64,000 nucleotides of DNA from Alkalinema sp. FACHB-956. GTDB lineage: Bacteria > Cyanobacteriota > Cyanobacteriia > Leptolyngbyales > Leptolyngbyaceae. This document shows, piece by piece, positions 12,469 to 19,736 of this stretch. The notes beneath the pieces are model-generated. The model saw nothing but the letters and a program-made list of their open reading frames with translations. It did not search any database and was not told the origin of the DNA. The translations under genes and the position numbers were made by a program. The DNA lies in assembly GCF_014697025.1 (NCBI RefSeq), contig NZ_JACJRC010000001.1, positions 620,001 to 684,000 on the forward strand. Direction: 5' to 3'. The stretch's first letter is position 1. Every line of letters starts with the position of its first letter.

Positions 12469-12796
12469 ATTGTTTTTGTTACTGTATAACTTTAGTTTTT
12501 TTATAGTTTTTGCTGAAGTCCTAGAGGTCGATCTTATTGCAGAATGGGTAGTCTAGATCAACACATTCAGGATCGATCAATTATTGAATCATTTCTAGGT
12601 TGATTAATCTTGAACTTGTCGAATTTTTTAAGGTGTTGAAATCGTAAGTTCTCTGATTTTTTGAAAATTGTATTTTCACAGTTCAGTAATTTTACGATTT
12701 TTCAGCAGCTCTTTTGTCCTTTTTAAATTTTTCTCACTCGCTTGCCACAATTGCCTTGTCCCTATCTTCGCTCTTGAGTTTCTGCGAGATTTTAGT

Positions 12797-15610
12797 ATGC
12801 TTCTTAATTCCGCACTTCAATCAGATGAACTGAGTTCTGTCTCTCAGCAATTAATGCTGCTCGAACAGGAAAACCAATGGATGAAGGAAGCATTACGGGA
12901 AGCGTACGATCGGTTGGCGATCGCTGCAAAACGACAACTTAAAACGATCAGTACTCGAGATGGCATTTCAGAAGCATTTTCGCGAGCGGCAGGTATTCGC
13001 TATGAATTACAACGATATAAACAAGAACCTCGGGATAGGAGTTGGCAAGAACCCATCCCCTCTGAGCAGGAACAGTTTTTGCGATCGATTTACGATGGTG
13101 TGGATTATCCTATCTTTGTGATTGATGTGATAGGCGGGGATGAGTTCCGCTATGCAAGCTGGAATCGATCGGCGGAACAGGTGGCGGGGCTATCCAGTGC
13201 AGAGGTGATGGGCAAAACGCCGGAGGCCATTCATGGGGTCGAAGCGGGAGCATTAGCGCGGCAGCGGTTGCAGCATGTAGTGCAGACGGGGTTGCCGTTG
13301 CAGTATGAGGAATCTCTGGTTTTCCAAGGGAAAGTCACTTGGTGGATGACGACCTTGAATCCAGTGAAGGATGAGCAAGATCGGGTCTATCGGGTGATTG
13401 GAACTGCCTTTGACTGGACGGAACGGAAACGCCACGAGGAAGCTTTGCGGTTGGTTGTAGATGGAACCAGTGCAAGTACCGGAGATGAGTTTTTTCGATC
13501 GTGTGTGAAATTCTTGGCAGAGGCTTTGCGGATGCCGTTTGCGTTCATTACGGAATTTATTGATGACACGCGATCGCGGGCAAGAATGTTGGCAGTCTGG
13601 GCTGGGAAGGATTTTGCTGAGAATTTTGAATATGATTTGGCGGGAACCCCCTGTGCCGTTACAGTTCGGGAGGGGTTTGCCCGGTTTCCCCATTCTCTAC
13701 AAACGAGATTTCCTGAGGATCACGATTTAACGGTGTGGGGAGTCGAAAGTTATTTAAGTATTACGTTGGTGGATAGCCAGGGTCGTTTACTCGGCACGAT
13801 GGGGGTGTTGGGCACCCAACCGTTGAATGAGGACGATCGCACCCAGGAGTCGATTTTGCGGATTTTTGCGGCGCGGGTGGGGGCTGAGATTGAGCGCAAG
13901 CAAACCGAAGCCAGCTTACGGCAGCAGGAGGCACAATACCGGGGCATTGTGGAAACGGTTACGGATGGGATTGTGATGACGGATCTGGCAACGCATCATG
14001 TGGTTGAAGCGAATCCAGCGGCCTGTCGTATCTATGGGTATCCCTACGAGGCATTAATTGGCCTGGATACCAAAGATGTCATTGTCCCGGAATATCAATT
14101 TCAGTTGACTCGATTTTTTGATTGTATTGACCAAGGACAACCCTTTTCTGCGGAGTCTAAGTATTTCCGGCGGGACGGCTCGATCGTGGATGTGGAGGTG
14201 ATTGGCACGCCCTATTTATATCGAGGGAAACCCCATGCTTTGTCGGTGATCCGAGATATTAGCGATCGCAAGTTGGTGGAGCGGGCGCTGAAGCAACAAC
14301 AACGGGAATTTCGCCAGTTGGCTAAAAATATTCCGGGCATTCTGTACCAATTTTTGTTGCGTCCAGATGGCTCACAAGAATTTGTCTATGTCAGTCCCCG
14401 GTGTTGGGATGTGTATGAAGTTGCGCCGGAGATGGCTGTTGCTGATCCGAATGCATTGTGGAGCTTGGTGCTTCCGGAGGATGTTACAGCGCTGAATCAA
14501 TCCGTTATGGTGTCAGCGCAAACCTTGGAACCGTGGTTTTCGGAACATCGAATTCGGACGGCTTCCGGCATTATGAAATGGATTCAAGGGCAATCCATTC
14601 CAACGAAGCGGGAGAATGGGGACATTATTTGGGATGGTTTTTTGTTTGATGTGACGGAGCGGAAGCAGGTCGAAGAAGCGCTGAAACAGTCGGAGGCCCG
14701 ATCGCGGCGGCAGGCGATCGATTTGGCGATCGCGATTAAGGAGTTGAAACGGACGCAAACGCAGTTAGTCCAAAGTGAGAAGATGTCGTCCTTGGGGCAG
14801 TTGGTGGCGGGGGTAGCCCATGAAATTAACAACCCGACGAGTTTTATTTACGGCAATTTGGGCCATGTGGAAGCCTATGCCCAGGGCATTTTAGGTTTGT
14901 TGAAGTTGTATCAGCAGCATTATCCGCAGCCTGAGCCAGCAATTCAAGCTTGGGCTGAGGCGATCGAGTTGGATTTTGTCGTTGAGGATTTTCCTAAAAC
15001 GCTGCGATCGATGCAGGAGGGGGCGGAACGGATTAAGCAGATTGTGTTGTCGTTGCGGACGTTTTCTCGGTTGGATGAGGCGGATTGCAAGTCGGCAAAT
15101 TTGCATGAGGGCTTGGATAGTACGTTGATGATTTTGCAGCATCGGTTAAAGGCCAATGCGGATCAACCGAGTATTCACGTGGAGAAGGTGTATGGGGATC
15201 TGCCACTGGTGAATTGCTATGCGGGGCAGTTGAACCAGGTGTTTATGAATCTTTTGTCCAATGCGATCGATGCGGTGTTGGAGAAGTTTCCGAGGGTGCA
15301 ACCGGAGGTGATGGAGCAACCGAAGATTACGATTCGGACGGAGGTGAGTCAGCCGGGATGGGTGAAGATTACGATCGCGGATAATGGGTGTGGTATTGCG
15401 CCGGAGCATCGATCGCGGTTGTTTGATCCATTCTTTACAACGAAGCCCGTGGGTCAAGGGACAGGGATGGGGCTATCGATTAGCTATCAGATTGTGACGG
15501 AGAAACATCAGGGGCGGTTGCGGTGCTGTAGTGGGCCAGAGGGGGGAGCGGAGTTTGTGATTGAAATTCCGATCGATTTGGATCGGGTGCAGGGTAGGCA
15601 GGCGAGTTAA
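12797..15610 (+). CDS. PAS/GAF sensor histidine kinase
   Basis: A soluble multi-sensor kinase with no membrane segment. I start at ATG 12797 (MLLNSALQSDELSSV) because the 43 extra residues available from TTG 12668 are hydrophobic and unconserved in look. Order: short N-terminal coiled coil, PAS (about 95-215), GAF (about 218-372), PAS (about 378-497), PAS (about 505-625), then the kinase core. The phosphoacceptor is His675 in VAHEINNP. The following IYGNLGHVEAY segment and about 60-residue helical insert typify a cyanobacterial HisKA variant, shared with the kinase at 44967. The HATPase has NLLSNAIDAV (N box), DNGCGIAPE (G1) and GQGTGMGLSI (G2). No receiver is fused or adjacent, so its partner is unknown. 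Confidence 0.93.
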   Translation: MLLNSALQSDELSSVSQQLMLLEQENQWMKEALREAYDRLAIAAKRQLKTISTRDGISEAFSRAAGIRYELQRYKQEPRDRSWQEPIPSEQEQFLRSIYDGVDYPIFVIDVIGGDEFRYASWNRSAEQVAGLSSAEVMGKTPEAIHGVEAGALARQRLQHVVQTGLPLQYEESLVFQGKVTWWMTTLNPVKDEQDRVYRVIGTAFDWTERKRHEEALRLVVDGTSASTGDEFFRSCVKFLAEALRMPFAFITEFIDDTRSRARMLAVWAGKDFAENFEYDLAGTPCAVTVREGFARFPHSLQTRFPEDHDLTVWGVESYLSITLVDSQGRLLGTMGVLGTQPLNEDDRTQESILRIFAARVGAEIERKQTEASLRQQEAQYRGIVETVTDGIVMTDLATHHVVEANPAACRIYGYPYEALIGLDTKDVIVPEYQFQLTRFFDCIDQGQPFSAESKYFRRDGSIVDVEVIGTPYLYRGKPHALSVIRDISDRKLVERALKQQQREFRQLAKNIPGILYQFLLRPDGSQEFVYVSPRCWDVYEVAPEMAVADPNALWSLVLPEDVTALNQSVMVSAQTLEPWFSEHRIRTASGIMKWIQGQSIPTKRENGDIIWDGFLFDVTERKQVEEALKQSEARSRRQAIDLAIAIKELKRTQTQLVQSEKMSSLGQLVAGVAHEINNPTSFIYGNLGHVEAYAQGILGLLKLYQQHYPQPEPAIQAWAEAIELDFVVEDFPKTLRSMQEGAERIKQIVLSLRTFSRLDEADCKSANLHEGLDSTLMILQHRLKANADQPSIHVEKVYGDLPLVNCYAGQLNQVFMNLLSNAIDAVLEKFPRVQPEVMEQPKITIRTEVSQPGWVKITIADNGCGIAPEHRSRLFDPFFTTKPVGQGTGMGLSISYQIVTEKHQGRLRCCSGPEGGAEFVIEIPIDLDRVQGRQAS

Positions 15611-15695
15611 GAAAAAATAGCATTTGTCTACATGTTTCTACATGTGATTCGTTTTTTCTTTTTAGTGTTGAATCTAACGTCGATCGCAACTCTCC

Positions 15696-15728
15696 AAAAA
15701 CCGGGATTTTCTAAAAATCCCGGTTTTT
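15696..15728. terminator. Bidirectional intrinsic terminator
   Basis: AAAAACCGGGATTTT is followed after 3 bases by its reverse complement, leaving a T run on both strands. It sits between the histidine kinase (plus) and the 72-aa gene (minus), which converge here, and can end transcripts from both. Confidence 0.9.
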
Positions 15729-15760
15729 ATGCAATCCTTGGGACAACAGATCGATCACAC

Positions 15761-15979
15761 TTATTCTGTCATCCGATCGCGTTCCATTTTGCTGACATAC
15801 TGCCAATTGGAGCCGGGGACGGGAACGGGGGGACTCCAGCGCACCCGATCGCTGAAGCGCAACACGTACAATTGGTTGATGGTGGATTGGACTTCTTCGC
15901 GGGTGCCCAAGAGATAAAATTGCAGGGGTTTACGATCGTCCTCGATCGCACGATCGAGATCGTCAAAGCTAACGAACAT
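15761..15979 (-). CDS. Small conserved-looking cyanobacterial protein, unknown function
   Basis: The 72-aa product begins MFVSFDDLDRAIEDDRKPLQ and is soluble, with no signal peptide or membrane segment. The start is decided by a strong Shine-Dalgarno AGGAG (15988-15992) 8 bases before ATG 15979; the 17 residues available upstream in the open frame are read-through of the leader. It looks like the small proteins of about 70 aa commonly annotated as hypothetical in cyanobacteria, with an FYLLGT motif and a helical EEVQSTINQLYVLRF segment. Its upstream DNA is unusual: an intrinsic terminator ends only 37 bases before the start codon and is preceded by a highly structured candidate RNA, suggesting attenuation or an adjacent RNA gene. 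Confidence 0.75.
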   Translation of the reverse strand: MFVSFDDLDRAIEDDRKPLQFYLLGTREEVQSTINQLYVLRFSDRVRWSPPVPVPGSNWQYVSKMERDRMTE

Positions 15980-16015
15980 GGGGATTTCTCCTGTGTAGGG
16001 ATGGGAGGAAACCCC

Positions 16016-16056
16016 AAAAATTAAAGCCACCCTCTTTGCAGGACAAGTAGGGTGGC
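16016..16056 (-). terminator. Intrinsic terminator of the candidate RNA
   Basis: On the minus strand GCCACCCT and AGGGTGGC form an 8-bp GC-rich stem around a 15-base loop, followed by TTTAATTTTT. Its position between the structured RNA and the 72-aa gene would allow it to act as an attenuator. Confidence 0.8.
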
Positions 16057-16216
16057 CCGATCGAATGTTACAATCCGTGTCAGACCGCCTTGCTGGCCGT
16101 AACAGCTTGGGGGTTTAGCTGCCTTCCGTTGTTACCAGCAACTTAGGCAGCGCCTTAATTTTTGGGAGACAAGCTGATCGAATCGGGAAGTTAAACACGG
16201 TTGTAATCAGCTATGA
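16016..16216 (-). ncRNA. Candidate structured RNA with long-range helix and pseudoknot
   Basis: Read on the minus strand, TTACAACCGTGT (16206-16195) pairs with ACACGGATTGTAA (16080-16068): 12 base pairs with one bulge, closing a domain of about 114 bases. Inside, TGTTAC/CAGCAA arms (16099-16104 with 16130-16135; 16090-16095 with 16136-16141) make a 12-bp hairpin with a 3-base bulge. Its loop segment 16118-16124 pairs with 16145-16151 (GCTGCCT/AGGCAGC), an H-type pseudoknot. AGCTGAT at 16206-16212 can also pair with 16172-16178, crossing the closing helix. The RNA ends in an intrinsic terminator and starts about 7 bases after a good promoter. I compared it from memory with tmRNA, 6S RNA, RNase P RNA, SRP RNA and glutamine riboswitches and matched none. 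It may be an independent RNA or a leader/riboswitch for the 72-aa gene. Confidence 0.6.
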
Positions 16217-16222
16217 GAAACA

Positions 16223-16251
16223 AGCCTACGGATAACGAGGGGAACTGTCAA
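16223..16251 (-). promoter_or_regulatory. Predicted sigma-70-type promoter for the structured RNA
   Basis: Perfect -35 TTGACA (16251-16246) is separated by exactly 17 bases from TAGGCT (16228-16223), which matches the -10 consensus at its first, second and last positions. The expected start near 16216 coincides with the beginning of the predicted RNA structure. Confidence 0.55.
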
Positions 16252-16370
16252 GCCTCGTGAGACACTTCGCAACAATGGCGATCGGCAACATTGATCGACT
16301 GAGATTAAAGGCAGGCTCTTGAGCAATCCCGATTCTGTGGTCAAGCAACTTGAACTCTGAAACTGATTGT

Positions 16371-19300
16371 TTAATCTGCTGCAAGAGCAGCTTGTAAAAG
16401 TTGAATTACCTGATCAACTCCAGTAATCGCTTGTGGACTACGTGAAAGGATAGTTGCGTCATTAAGAGCATTTCTCAGAGCAAATTTATCGGTACAGGAT
16501 TGGATCAGATTATTTAATCGATCGAAGCCATCGGTGGTATTGCCCAATGCTACTGTAAATACGCAATGAACAGCCTGATCCCAATCACTATCAGCAACCA
16601 TCAAATCTAGTCCTTTGTGCCAGGATTGTTTCGCCTCGTCTAATTCGCCTCGTTGAGCTTTAACAAGACCATAATTCAGCCAAGCTCGATCGAATTTTTC
16701 TTTTTCAATTACTTGCTTAATCAAACTTTCTGCTGTTCTGAAATCACCTTGAAGCAAGTTTAGATATCCTAAGTTACTACGAAAGGCTAAATTTCCCGGC
16801 TGTAGATCTAATGCTTTTTGAAAAGATAATAAAGATTCTGAATATTGTTCTAATTTATATTGAAGATGGCCAATTTGCTCCTGAACAGTAATATCAGACG
16901 GATTATTTTTTAGAGCTAATTCAAAATCATTTAATGCATCTTTGTAGCGTTTTAACGCTTGATAAGTCTGTCCACGAGATACAATAACCGAAGTATAACT
17001 ATCATCAAATTCAATAGTATCACTATCAATAAGTTCGATCACACGGTCAAAGTCCTGCAATGCTTCATCATATCGTTCCAGCAATTGATAGGTTTCCCCT
17101 CTATTAGCAAATACCGAAGTATAACTATCATCAAATTCAATAGTATCACTATCAATAAGTTCGATCACACGGTCAAAGTCCTGCAATGCTTCATCATATC
17201 GTTCCAGCAATTGATAGGTTTTCCCTCTATTAGCAAATGCCGATTTGTATTTCGGATCTAGTTCGATAGATTTTTCGTAAGCAGTGATGGCTTCACCATA
17301 CTTTTTTTGCTCTCTGTAGACATCACCTAGATTACTGTAGGCAAATGTATGAGCACTTAATAAGTCTGGTGATTCAAGAGCTTGACGATATGATTGAATA
17401 GCTAAATCATTTTTTTTAAGCTCTTGGTAGATGTTGCCTAAGTTATTGTGAGCAGGAGCAAATTTAGAGTCAATCTTAATCACTTTTTGGTAAGCCGCTA
17501 TTGCTTTATCAGATTGCTTCTGTTCTTTGTAGAGAATACCTAAATTGTAGTAAGTCATGGCATTTTTTGGGTCAAGTTCAATCACTCTTTCGTACGCCAA
17601 AATCGCTTCCCCATAGCGTTTCTGTTCTTGGTAGAGAATACCTAAGTTGTGATGAGGAGCAGCCCATTTCGAGTCGAGTTCGATCGCTCTTTCGTACGCC
17701 GCGATTGCCTCTTCATACCGTTTCTGTTCTCTGTAGACATTGCCTAAGTTTTTGTGAGGAGAGGCAAATTTCGGGTCGAGTTCGATCGCTCTTTGGTAAG
17801 CCGTGATCGCCTCCTCGCACCGTTTCAAGTGTTGACAGGTGGAAGCCAAATCAAACCAATAGTCTGAATCCTCTCCATCAATCTCTACCGCCTGCTGAAA
17901 ATCCTTCAGCGCAGCCTCCTCCTGCTGATTCCAGCGAGACCAACGCCCTCGCCGATAAAGCGCAACTGCCCGTAACTTCTCCTCAATTCCCGCCTCCGCC
18001 AACAGCGCCGTCAGCACTGGAATCGCCTCCCCATAGCGCTTCTCCTGCTGCGCCACCAGCCCCTCCCGCAGCCGCTCTCCCCAGCGCCGCAACCCCTCAC
18101 ACCGCGCCTCCTGCCCCGCCTGCACCATCACCCCCGCCCACTCCTGCGCAAACGCCCGCGACTGCCTCAACGCCCGCAAAAACCCATTCAGTGCCAGCCC
18201 CACCTTCCCCTGCGGAGCCACACACAACTCGTGATACAACCCCTCCAACGCAAACTCCCGCCACACCTCATCCTTCGCCTCTTTGCCCGCCTCCAGCCCC
18301 AACGCCCCCTGCCGCTCGGCGTAATACCCCACCAACTTGCCATGCACCTCCGCCCAGCGCTTCCCAGACCGCTGCATCCCATAGCGCACCATCTGCTCCC
18401 GCACCACCGAGTGATAGCGCCAACACGCCCCATCCCGCACCACAAACGCACAACCCTTCAACCACTCAAACGCCCCATCCCCCAACACCGCCGCCACATC
18501 CTCATTCAACACCCGCGCACAGGCCCCCTCCAGCGCCAACTGCCGCCGTGCCCCATCCTGCTCCCACTTCAAAAACCGCTCCACCGCCTCCTCACAGGGA
18601 TCCACCACCGCATCCACCGTCGTCGGAGCACTATCTGCCATCATCGACACCAACATCGGCAACCCACCCCCCGACAACCGCCAAATCTCCCCAATCACCG
18701 CCTCACTCATAATCCCCTTACTCGCCAAAAACCGCCGCGCCTCCTCCTCCGTAAACGGCTCCAACGGCGATCGGGCAATGCAATCATCCCAATCCTCCCA
18801 AGCATTGCGATCGAGCGGTTGCCGCCCCGCAATACACAACAACAACCCCACCCGAATCTCACCAAACTCATTATTCAAAAACGATCGCACCCACCCATCC
18901 AAAAACGGCCCCGTCACCTCATAGGTATCCAGCATCAGAACCACTGTCTTCTCTGCGAGTGCCTTCTCCGCCGCAATCCGATTAATCCCCTCCAGAAACA
19001 GCGGCGTTAACTCCTCCAGCGTTTCCTTCATCAACCGCTCATCATCCCGGCCCTGCAAACTCTCCCAGCCCGCATTCGCCATTTCCCCCACCCGCGCAGC
19101 GATCGGCTCACTATCAATCATGCCGCCCACCACCGGAATCGACGCCTTTCCCACATCCAAAGCAATCTTCGTCGTTCCCCGCACCACATCCGCCAGCAAA
19201 TTCTTAGACGCTTCCGGCCTCGCTTCTAGCTCCTGCTTCTTAACCCGATACTCCCGATAGCGCTTACGGAAACTATCAAACTTCAACCCCTGCTGCTCCA

Positions 19301-19601
19301 AATCCTCCACCAGCCGATGCATCGCCTCCGGGGTATCATTCACCAAATTCGTCGCCACCCCCTCACTCACATAGGCCACCAAATGCCCATTCTCCTCCGC
19401 AATCCGCCGAAACTCCTTCAGCAGCGTCGTCTTCCCCACGCCCCCCTGCCCCGAAATCCCAAAAATAATCTTCGCCTCACTGTGATCCGGCTCCAACAGC
19501 GATCGTCGAAACTGATCCTGCTGCACCAACCTCCCAACAAACGATCGAGCATTCCGCGCATCACGCCGCTCTTTAGGAGACTTAGGCCGTGGAGTAGGCA
19601 T
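16371..19601 (-). CDS. STAND-type P-loop NTPase with C-terminal tetratricopeptide repeats
   Basis: A large signal-transducing ATPase of the STAND (NB-ARC/NACHT-like) class. After a basic N terminus come FVGR and the Walker A GISGQGGVGKTTLL (about residues 48-61). A Walker B-like VVLMLDTYE lies near residue 225 and a sensor-like LLLCIAGRQPL near 265. A helical arm and winged-helix-like region follow. From about residue 520 at least ten TPRs (for example YEEAIAAYERAIELDS) run to the end. Such proteins usually oligomerise when the repeats sense a ligand; some defend against phages, but no effector domain is recognised at the N terminus here. ATG 19601 is preferred to TTG 19616. Two TPR units are near-identical at DNA level. 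The NTPase half is much richer in G and C than the TPR half, as if the two had different histories. Confidence 0.85.
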   Translation of the reverse strand: MPTPRPKSPKERRDARNARSFVGRLVQQDQFRRSLLEPDHSEAKIIFGISGQGGVGKTTLLKEFRRIAEENGHLVAYVSEGVATNLVNDTPEAMHRLVEDLEQQGLKFDSFRKRYREYRVKKQELEARPEASKNLLADVVRGTTKIALDVGKASIPVVGGMIDSEPIAARVGEMANAGWESLQGRDDERLMKETLEELTPLFLEGINRIAAEKALAEKTVVLMLDTYEVTGPFLDGWVRSFLNNEFGEIRVGLLLCIAGRQPLDRNAWEDWDDCIARSPLEPFTEEEARRFLASKGIMSEAVIGEIWRLSGGGLPMLVSMMADSAPTTVDAVVDPCEEAVERFLKWEQDGARRQLALEGACARVLNEDVAAVLGDGAFEWLKGCAFVVRDGACWRYHSVVREQMVRYGMQRSGKRWAEVHGKLVGYYAERQGALGLEAGKEAKDEVWREFALEGLYHELCVAPQGKVGLALNGFLRALRQSRAFAQEWAGVMVQAGQEARCEGLRRWGERLREGLVAQQEKRYGEAIPVLTALLAEAGIEEKLRAVALYRRGRWSRWNQQEEAALKDFQQAVEIDGEDSDYWFDLASTCQHLKRCEEAITAYQRAIELDPKFASPHKNLGNVYREQKRYEEAIAAYERAIELDSKWAAPHHNLGILYQEQKRYGEAILAYERVIELDPKNAMTYYNLGILYKEQKQSDKAIAAYQKVIKIDSKFAPAHNNLGNIYQELKKNDLAIQSYRQALESPDLLSAHTFAYSNLGDVYREQKKYGEAITAYEKSIELDPKYKSAFANRGKTYQLLERYDEALQDFDRVIELIDSDTIEFDDSYTSVFANRGETYQLLERYDEALQDFDRVIELIDSDTIEFDDSYTSVIVSRGQTYQALKRYKDALNDFELALKNNPSDITVQEQIGHLQYKLEQYSESLLSFQKALDLQPGNLAFRSNLGYLNLLQGDFRTAESLIKQVIEKEKFDRAWLNYGLVKAQRGELDEAKQSWHKGLDLMVADSDWDQAVHCVFTVALGNTTDGFDRLNNLIQSCTDKFALRNALNDATILSRSPQAITGVDQVIQLLQAALAAD
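16987..17238 (-). repeat. 126-bp tandem duplication inside the TPR region
   Basis: Bases 16987-17112 and 17113-17238 are almost identical (one obvious difference, TTTCCCCTC against TTTTCCCTC). Each unit encodes 42 residues, a TPR with an inserted acidic loop (DSDTIEFDDSY). The near-identity indicates a very recent in-frame expansion. Confidence 0.9.
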
Positions 19602-19736
19602 ACCAATCAATCCCAAAACGCTATGACAGAAGGAAACTACCCCCTGTTATAACACCACTCCCCCACTCTCCTACTCCCCACTCCCCAACACCCATCCCCT
19701 AAAATAAAAACACCCTCCTACCCTCCCACTCCCCCC

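Follow-up and report, generated by a model that had tools for sequence, protein, structure and literature searches.

The minus strand of the window, by which we mean the whole analysed stretch of 64,000 nucleotides from Alkalinema sp. FACHB-956, carries a promoter sequence, a structured RNA region and a small ORF of 72 amino acids, which was absent from the preliminary description and starts with an ATG at 15979. The structured RNA is best read as the ~240-nt 5' leader of this ORF, with a Shine-Dalgarno (SD) sequence ~20 nt 3' of the closing helix P1, followed by the ATG. The leader and the ORF lie between genes at 12668–15610 (plus strand) and 16371–19616 (minus strand), which encode a sensor histidine kinase with a PAS domain and a TPR-repeat AAA ATPase. 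The elements are, in the order of the minus strand, as follows.

16246–16251, minus strand: –35 element TTGACA, from the sequence.
16223–16228, minus strand: –10 element TAGGCT, 17 nt after TTGACA, from the sequence.
16172–16212, minus strand: 5' hairpin P0, in which AGCTGAT (16206–16212) pairs with ATCAGCT (16172–16178) over 7 bp.
16155–16166, minus strand: 5' strand of the closing helix P1, CCCAAAAATTAA, from covariation.
16118–16153, minus strand: hairpin P2, stem GCGCTGCC...GGCAGC with an inner GTTG-loop-CAAC, from covariation.
16085–16113, minus strand: hairpin P3, CCCCCAAGCTG-loop-CAGCAAGGCGG, from covariation.
16063–16076, minus strand: putative small hairpin P5, GGAT-TGTAAC-ATTC, from inspection of the alignment.
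16026–16058, minus strand: hairpin P4, GCCACCCT...AGGGTGGC, previously taken for a terminator stem, from covariation.
16013–16024, minus strand: 3' strand of P1, TTAATTTTTGGG, with 12 pairs to CCCAAAAATTAA, from covariation.
16004–16015, minus strand: 5' (anti-SD) strand of helix P6, GGGGTTTCCTCC, overlapping the GGG of P1, from duplex energies and co-change of the strands.
15980–15991, minus strand: 3' strand of P6, GGAGAAATCCCC, which includes the SD and abuts the ATG, from duplex energies and co-change of the strands.
15761–15979, minus strand: small ORF, 72 aa, from paralogues, dN/dS and homologues elsewhere.
15696–15728, minus strand: inverted repeat AAAAACCGGGATTTTTAGAAAATCCCGGTTTTT, 3' of the ORF, from the sequence.

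What stands out about this RNA is how often it recurs in a single genome. The leader DNA gave 18 matches in the host genome at 79–100% identity and the ORF gave 71, and the host copies formed four subfamilies, namely A (to which the window copy belongs), B, C and a distant D, in which the 61-aa protein is barely recognisable and the same RNA stands in front. Using a covariance model built from 35 host copies (R1), we found at least 75 host copies at 68 bits or more, together with one degenerate copy; as 150 of 2022 candidates were scored, 75 is possibly a lower bound. The RNA was present in 11 of 386 cyanobacterial genomes with R1 and in 12 of 386 with a broader model (R2), the host included. 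Elsewhere, G246 had 12 copies, G002 up to 6, G134 and G365 4 each, G383 2, and G012 and G035 1 each. With R2, the RNA was also recognised ahead of homologous ORFs in G246:C73 (at 65 bits) and G049 (at 32 bits). The named genera with homologues were Microcoleus, Tychonema and Lyngbya, and the window protein gave no match when it was searched against the GTDB and viral collections.

The linkage of the RNA and the ORF was found from either side. An ORF of the family followed 70 of the 71 host copies with enough downstream sequence, the exception being the degenerate copy, and essentially every RNA match at a complete locus in the other genomes. A protein search with a Microcoleus homologue yielded 36 Microcoleus-type loci. 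These were found by the protein alone, and the RNA preceded the ORF in all 36, of which one is interrupted at the end of its contig. The spacing between the RNA and the ORF was usually ~33–45 nt and was longer where a block had been inserted. The covariance models also matched the reverse complement of some copies with up to 45 bits, as at L101:1291–1449 and, on the opposite strand, at window:16012–16167, because the RNA structure is nearly symmetric; therefore, the assignment of the strand needs the ORF.

The promoter TTGACA-17-TAGGCT, as predicted in the preliminary description, is present in the sequence (16223–16251, minus strand), and TTGAC-17/18-TA(G/C)GCT was conserved upstream of nearly all copies in the host genome and in other genera. 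An operator-like palindrome, GGGTATCAAATGATACCC, was observed ~20–45 nt before the –35 box in many type B and C copies (L080, L082, L089, L098, L101 and others), the remaining copies having other upstream modules. In G246, copies on C53, C21 and C16 (L169, L171) were alike up to just before the promoter, some being at contig ends, and these shared flanks suggest recent duplication. At the other end, the inverted repeat AAAAACCGGGATTTTTAGAAAATCCCGGTTTTT is the probable end of the transcription unit, in which the leader would be transcribed together with the ORF, and a similar repeat was found 3' of many type A copies.

The leader is a real structured RNA, as had been proposed. The 213-nt stretch had a folding energy of –74.3 kcal/mol, which corresponds to z = –3.66 when compared with dinucleotide shuffles, and 0 of 200 shuffles were equally stable. 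Both-side changes, the predicted mark of its helices, were observed in 35 of 49 base pairs among 37 sequences from several cyanobacterial families, and the double-change cells numbered 193, compared with a mean of 64.7 (sd 9.1) after shuffling and 12–32 for slid structures, in an alignment that was fitted to the covariance model and hence favours the structure; a within-genome MAFFT alignment agreed, with 77 versus 42 double-change cells. The closing helix, which had been drawn from two distant segments, was confirmed as P1 (16155–16166 with 16013–16024), in which 12 of 14 pairs had double changes and 96% of cells were paired. Changes on both sides were likewise seen in 12 of 14 pairs of P2 and in 7 of 10 pairs of P4, with 93% of cells paired in the latter. 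On inspection of the alignment, the P5 loop appears to belong to a conserved type, UUUAAC/UUUAGC.

The U-tract after P4 is the 3' strand of P1 and is absent in G035 and in some G246 copies. As G035 retains P1 (GCTTAAACA/TGTTTAAGC) without a U-tract, this helix is itself under selection rather than the by-product of a terminator. Thus, the earlier picture of a free-standing RNA of ~200 nt ending at an intrinsic terminator was not upheld, since the structured region runs on into the ribosome-binding site and the ORF. The proposed H-type pseudoknot was also unsupported. Its 7-bp pairing (AGCTGAT/ATCAGCT) is present but crosses nothing, because both strands (16172–16212) lie 5' of P1 (16013–16166) and form the separate hairpin P0; other lineages also have a 5' hairpin at this site, differing in sequence and retaining complementarity. 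Similarly, GCTGCCT and AGGCAGC are complementary as described, but they are the two sides of one stem with compensatory changes and not loop bases that pair outside it. We considered further tertiary pairings: mutual complementarity of the P2 and P3 loops, compared by eye, was seen in few copies only, and a pairing of the P0 loop with the P3/P4 joiner, which in type A would join CAACCGTG to CACGGATTG, may exist but was inconsistent across lineages.

The P2 loop was hypervariable from copy to copy. Diversifying selection was not favoured as the cause, because synonymous sites are strongly diverged too and some loops are mutual reverse complements, as expected from loop inversion. One copy (L020) has the loop CTTGGAAC, and others (L027, L077) have GTTCCAAG, which is precisely the reverse complement of it, as if the loop had been inverted between the stem repeats. 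Some Microcoleus-type copies (L155, L162, L170, L191, L193, L197, L206) have an insert, CCCTCCGCTTCGCTCCG(CCC), within P2.

The preliminary description had matched the RNA to none of tmRNA, 6S, RNase P, SRP and the known riboswitches, and the database check agreed: Rfam 15 gave no credible match at gathering or permissive thresholds. The models of the glnA and Downstream-peptide RNAs (RF01739 and RF01704) gave no gathering-score match in the window or in eight homologous loci. They also gave no match around the window copy when the cutoff was relaxed to E ≤ 10, nor in six loci searched at E ≤ 1. ARAGORN found no tmRNA or tRNA, and no description of this RNA was found in literature searches of open-licence papers.

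Downstream of P1, a stretch that begins from the GGG at its end is complementary to the SD region, in the window GGGGTTTCCTCC with GGAGAAATCCCC-ATG, and this helix, P6, would hide the SD. P6 was better than with shuffled 5' strands in 30 of 30 type A, 23 of 24 type B, 6 of 6 type D and 6 of 10 type C units. A P6 duplex of –10 kcal/mol or lower was found in 98.7% of 75 units, whereas it was found in 2% of 47 control genes, which were ordinary ORFs of the window. The strands of P6 co-change between subfamilies (GGGATTTC/GAAATCCC, GGGCTT/AAGCTC and GGGTTTTCC/GGAAAACCT), and the pairing is kept in some B and C copies that have ~65 extra nt between the strands; this block (CCTCATCCCCGGCCCTTCTCCC...) was noted in L081, L083, L086, L087 and L108. 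G035, which has no U-tract, still has the SD hairpin in addition to P1. The Microcoleus copies have a longer hairpin instead, in which the 3' strand of P1 is used in full, CTGGGTTTTTGGGTTTT with AAAACCCAAAACCAG, adjoining GAG, and which reaches the SD at its edge only. No strong P6 was seen in the long-spacer leaders of G246.

In the predicted ensembles, the SD was paired with a probability of ~1, and in the host copies it stayed paired with or without a complete P1, whichever of P1 and P6 takes the GGG. Therefore, the competition of P1 and P6 alone does not free the SD, and the switch is putative. The overlap of P1 and P6 is, at the level of sequence, what the expression platform of a riboswitch type would look like.

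The ORF paralogues are under purifying selection. The median dN/dS was 0.15, 0.06, 0.15 and 0.02 in types A, B, C and D, respectively, at a median dS of 0.35–1.1. The small proteins had no family match above chance in Pfam, NCBIfam, PHROG or PADLOC, the tests with Pfam, NCBIfam and PADLOC covering 15 family members, and no sequence relative in the PDB. Two AlphaFold models had a beta-alpha-beta core with a mean pLDDT of 77 and 82, and neither had a significant Foldseek match, VIA-align giving Z < 5 only. The weak best matches of the first model include nucleic-acid-binding beta-alpha-beta domains (Alba, the C-terminal domain of IF3 and S10), none of them significant, and the second model had no trend to nucleic-acid-binding folds. 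The neighbouring genes in Microcoleus are mutually unrelated (a methyltransferase, an AcrB-type transporter, RF3 and PIN proteins).

Some ORF homologues, in Nostocales and on plasmids, lack this leader. Those encoded by Nostocales plasmids carry the annotation of hypothetical proteins; plasmid homologues without the RNA include L225 (Trichormus variabilis ATCC 29413 plasmid D) and L226–L229, and some adjoin a ParG or recombinase gene. Among Nostocales-type homologues that lack this RNA (L051, L052, L063, L067, L072, L055), several have a different leader in common on their upstream side, with a hairpin like GGCGATCG...ATTCCGCCAAGAA...CGATCGCC, and it is possibly a second leader class.

The best reading of these results is a cis-acting mRNA leader, because the RNA lies consistently ~33–45 nt before the ORF and, in most lineages, is followed by a helix that hides the SD. 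We consider it probable that this leader, either riboswitch-like or autoregulated by a protein, controls the translation of the small protein. The covariation and the position before the ORF in nearly all copies give it the conserved, structured 5' UTR domain by which riboswitches are recognised. A monocistronic mRNA for the 72-aa protein would be transcribed from the sigma-70-type promoter, with the window region as its 5' leader. The transcript would begin with P0, continue with a multi-branched domain of P2, P3, P5 and P4 closed by P1, and then pair the pyrimidine-rich stretch directly after P1 with the SD region, forming P6. As both helices share the GGG at the 3' end of P1, completion of P1 would weaken P6, and in the Microcoleus relatives the whole 3' strand of P1 could be used by either. 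The ribosome site would be hidden by default, and the binding of a partner to the conserved domain would shift the balance. This partner may be a metabolite, as for riboswitches, or the product of the ORF, and we give these two about equal weight.

The strict linkage of the RNA and the protein could also come from a shared complex, in which the RNA is processed or terminated to a free form and the small protein of the adjacent ORF binds it. OLE RNA, an ornate RNA, immediately precedes the gene of the small protein OapA, and the present locus is alike in this respect, although the size, lineage and proteins differ. The elaborate structure with closed ends, the U-tract after P4 in most copies and the nucleic-acid-binding domains among the non-significant best matches of the first protein model would suit such a stable module. 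However, a conserved helix that overlaps P1 and hides the SD ties the RNA to the translation of the ORF and fits a leader rather than a free RNA; moreover, the U-tract is not conserved, the 3' end of the RNA is merely ~33–45 nt from the start codon and the second protein model does not share the trend of the first, and we thus consider this explanation unlikely. A type III toxin-antitoxin system (ToxIN-like) has the order of promoter, structured RNA, terminator-like hairpin and protein gene that is found here. As a candidate it was rejected, there being no tandem repeat in the RNA region (15650–16400) and no match of the ToxN, CptN or TenpN type in Pfam, NCBIfam or PADLOC for the 15 family members.

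Transcription attenuation, in which P4 with the U-tract would act as an intrinsic terminator, with the domain before it setting whether transcripts end there or run on into the ORF, is quite improbable as the main mode of control, although it could operate alongside the SD-hiding helix. The promoter is far upstream, and types A and B have a strong stem followed by UUUAAUUUUU or UCUAAAUUUUU, but the U-run is 4 nt off the stem in type D and Microcoleus and missing in others, a terminator scan did not include P4 and the U-tract among its calls, and no alternative anti-terminator pairing was found. We regard as highly improbable a mobile or selfish, non-autonomous repeat that merely happens to carry the RNA and a short ORF. 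The ~75 dispersed copies in one genome and the common flanks of some G246 copies are in its favour; against it, no target-site duplications were found (the mean longest shared flank word was 7.1, compared with 7.4 for shuffled partners), the flanks had no common terminus, the Microcoleus copies are at shared genomic positions between strains, and the high dS combined with low dN/dS of the paralogues does not suit such a repeat.

For the cis-acting leader, the nearest known kind is that of the glnA and Downstream-peptide RNAs (glutamine riboswitches), which are likewise structured leaders before small ORFs in cyanobacteria, although the new RNA matches neither model. Downstream-peptide RNAs were described by Weinberg and colleagues as preceding short cyanobacterial ORFs of 17–100 aa of an unknown family (PMC2864571), and the small protein IF17 is controlled by a glutamine riboswitch (PMC7760959). 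The new RNA differs from them in its closing helix of 12–14 bp, its interior of three hairpins, the conserved SD-hiding helix downstream, the protein family and the copy number, and it had no cmscan match to them; by analogy, it may work like the glutamine leaders in outline.

With ~75 units in a single genome, the paralogous small proteins may form a large regulon that shares one kind of RNA control. We tentatively propose, with somewhat less than even confidence, that the RNA is an undescribed class of riboswitch or autoregulated leader that acts ~75 times in the genome, each time on its own family member. If true, a single signal would simultaneously set how dozens of these paralogues are translated. 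The RNA would be a structured family that Rfam lacks, and it would combine strong covariation with a conserved small-protein partner of its own and a very high copy number in one genome. It would give a handle on the signal sensed by the RNA and on the role of a cyanobacterial small-protein family without an assigned domain, and, as Microcoleus and Tychonema, which are common mat formers, carry the RNA, it is testable in cultured strains.
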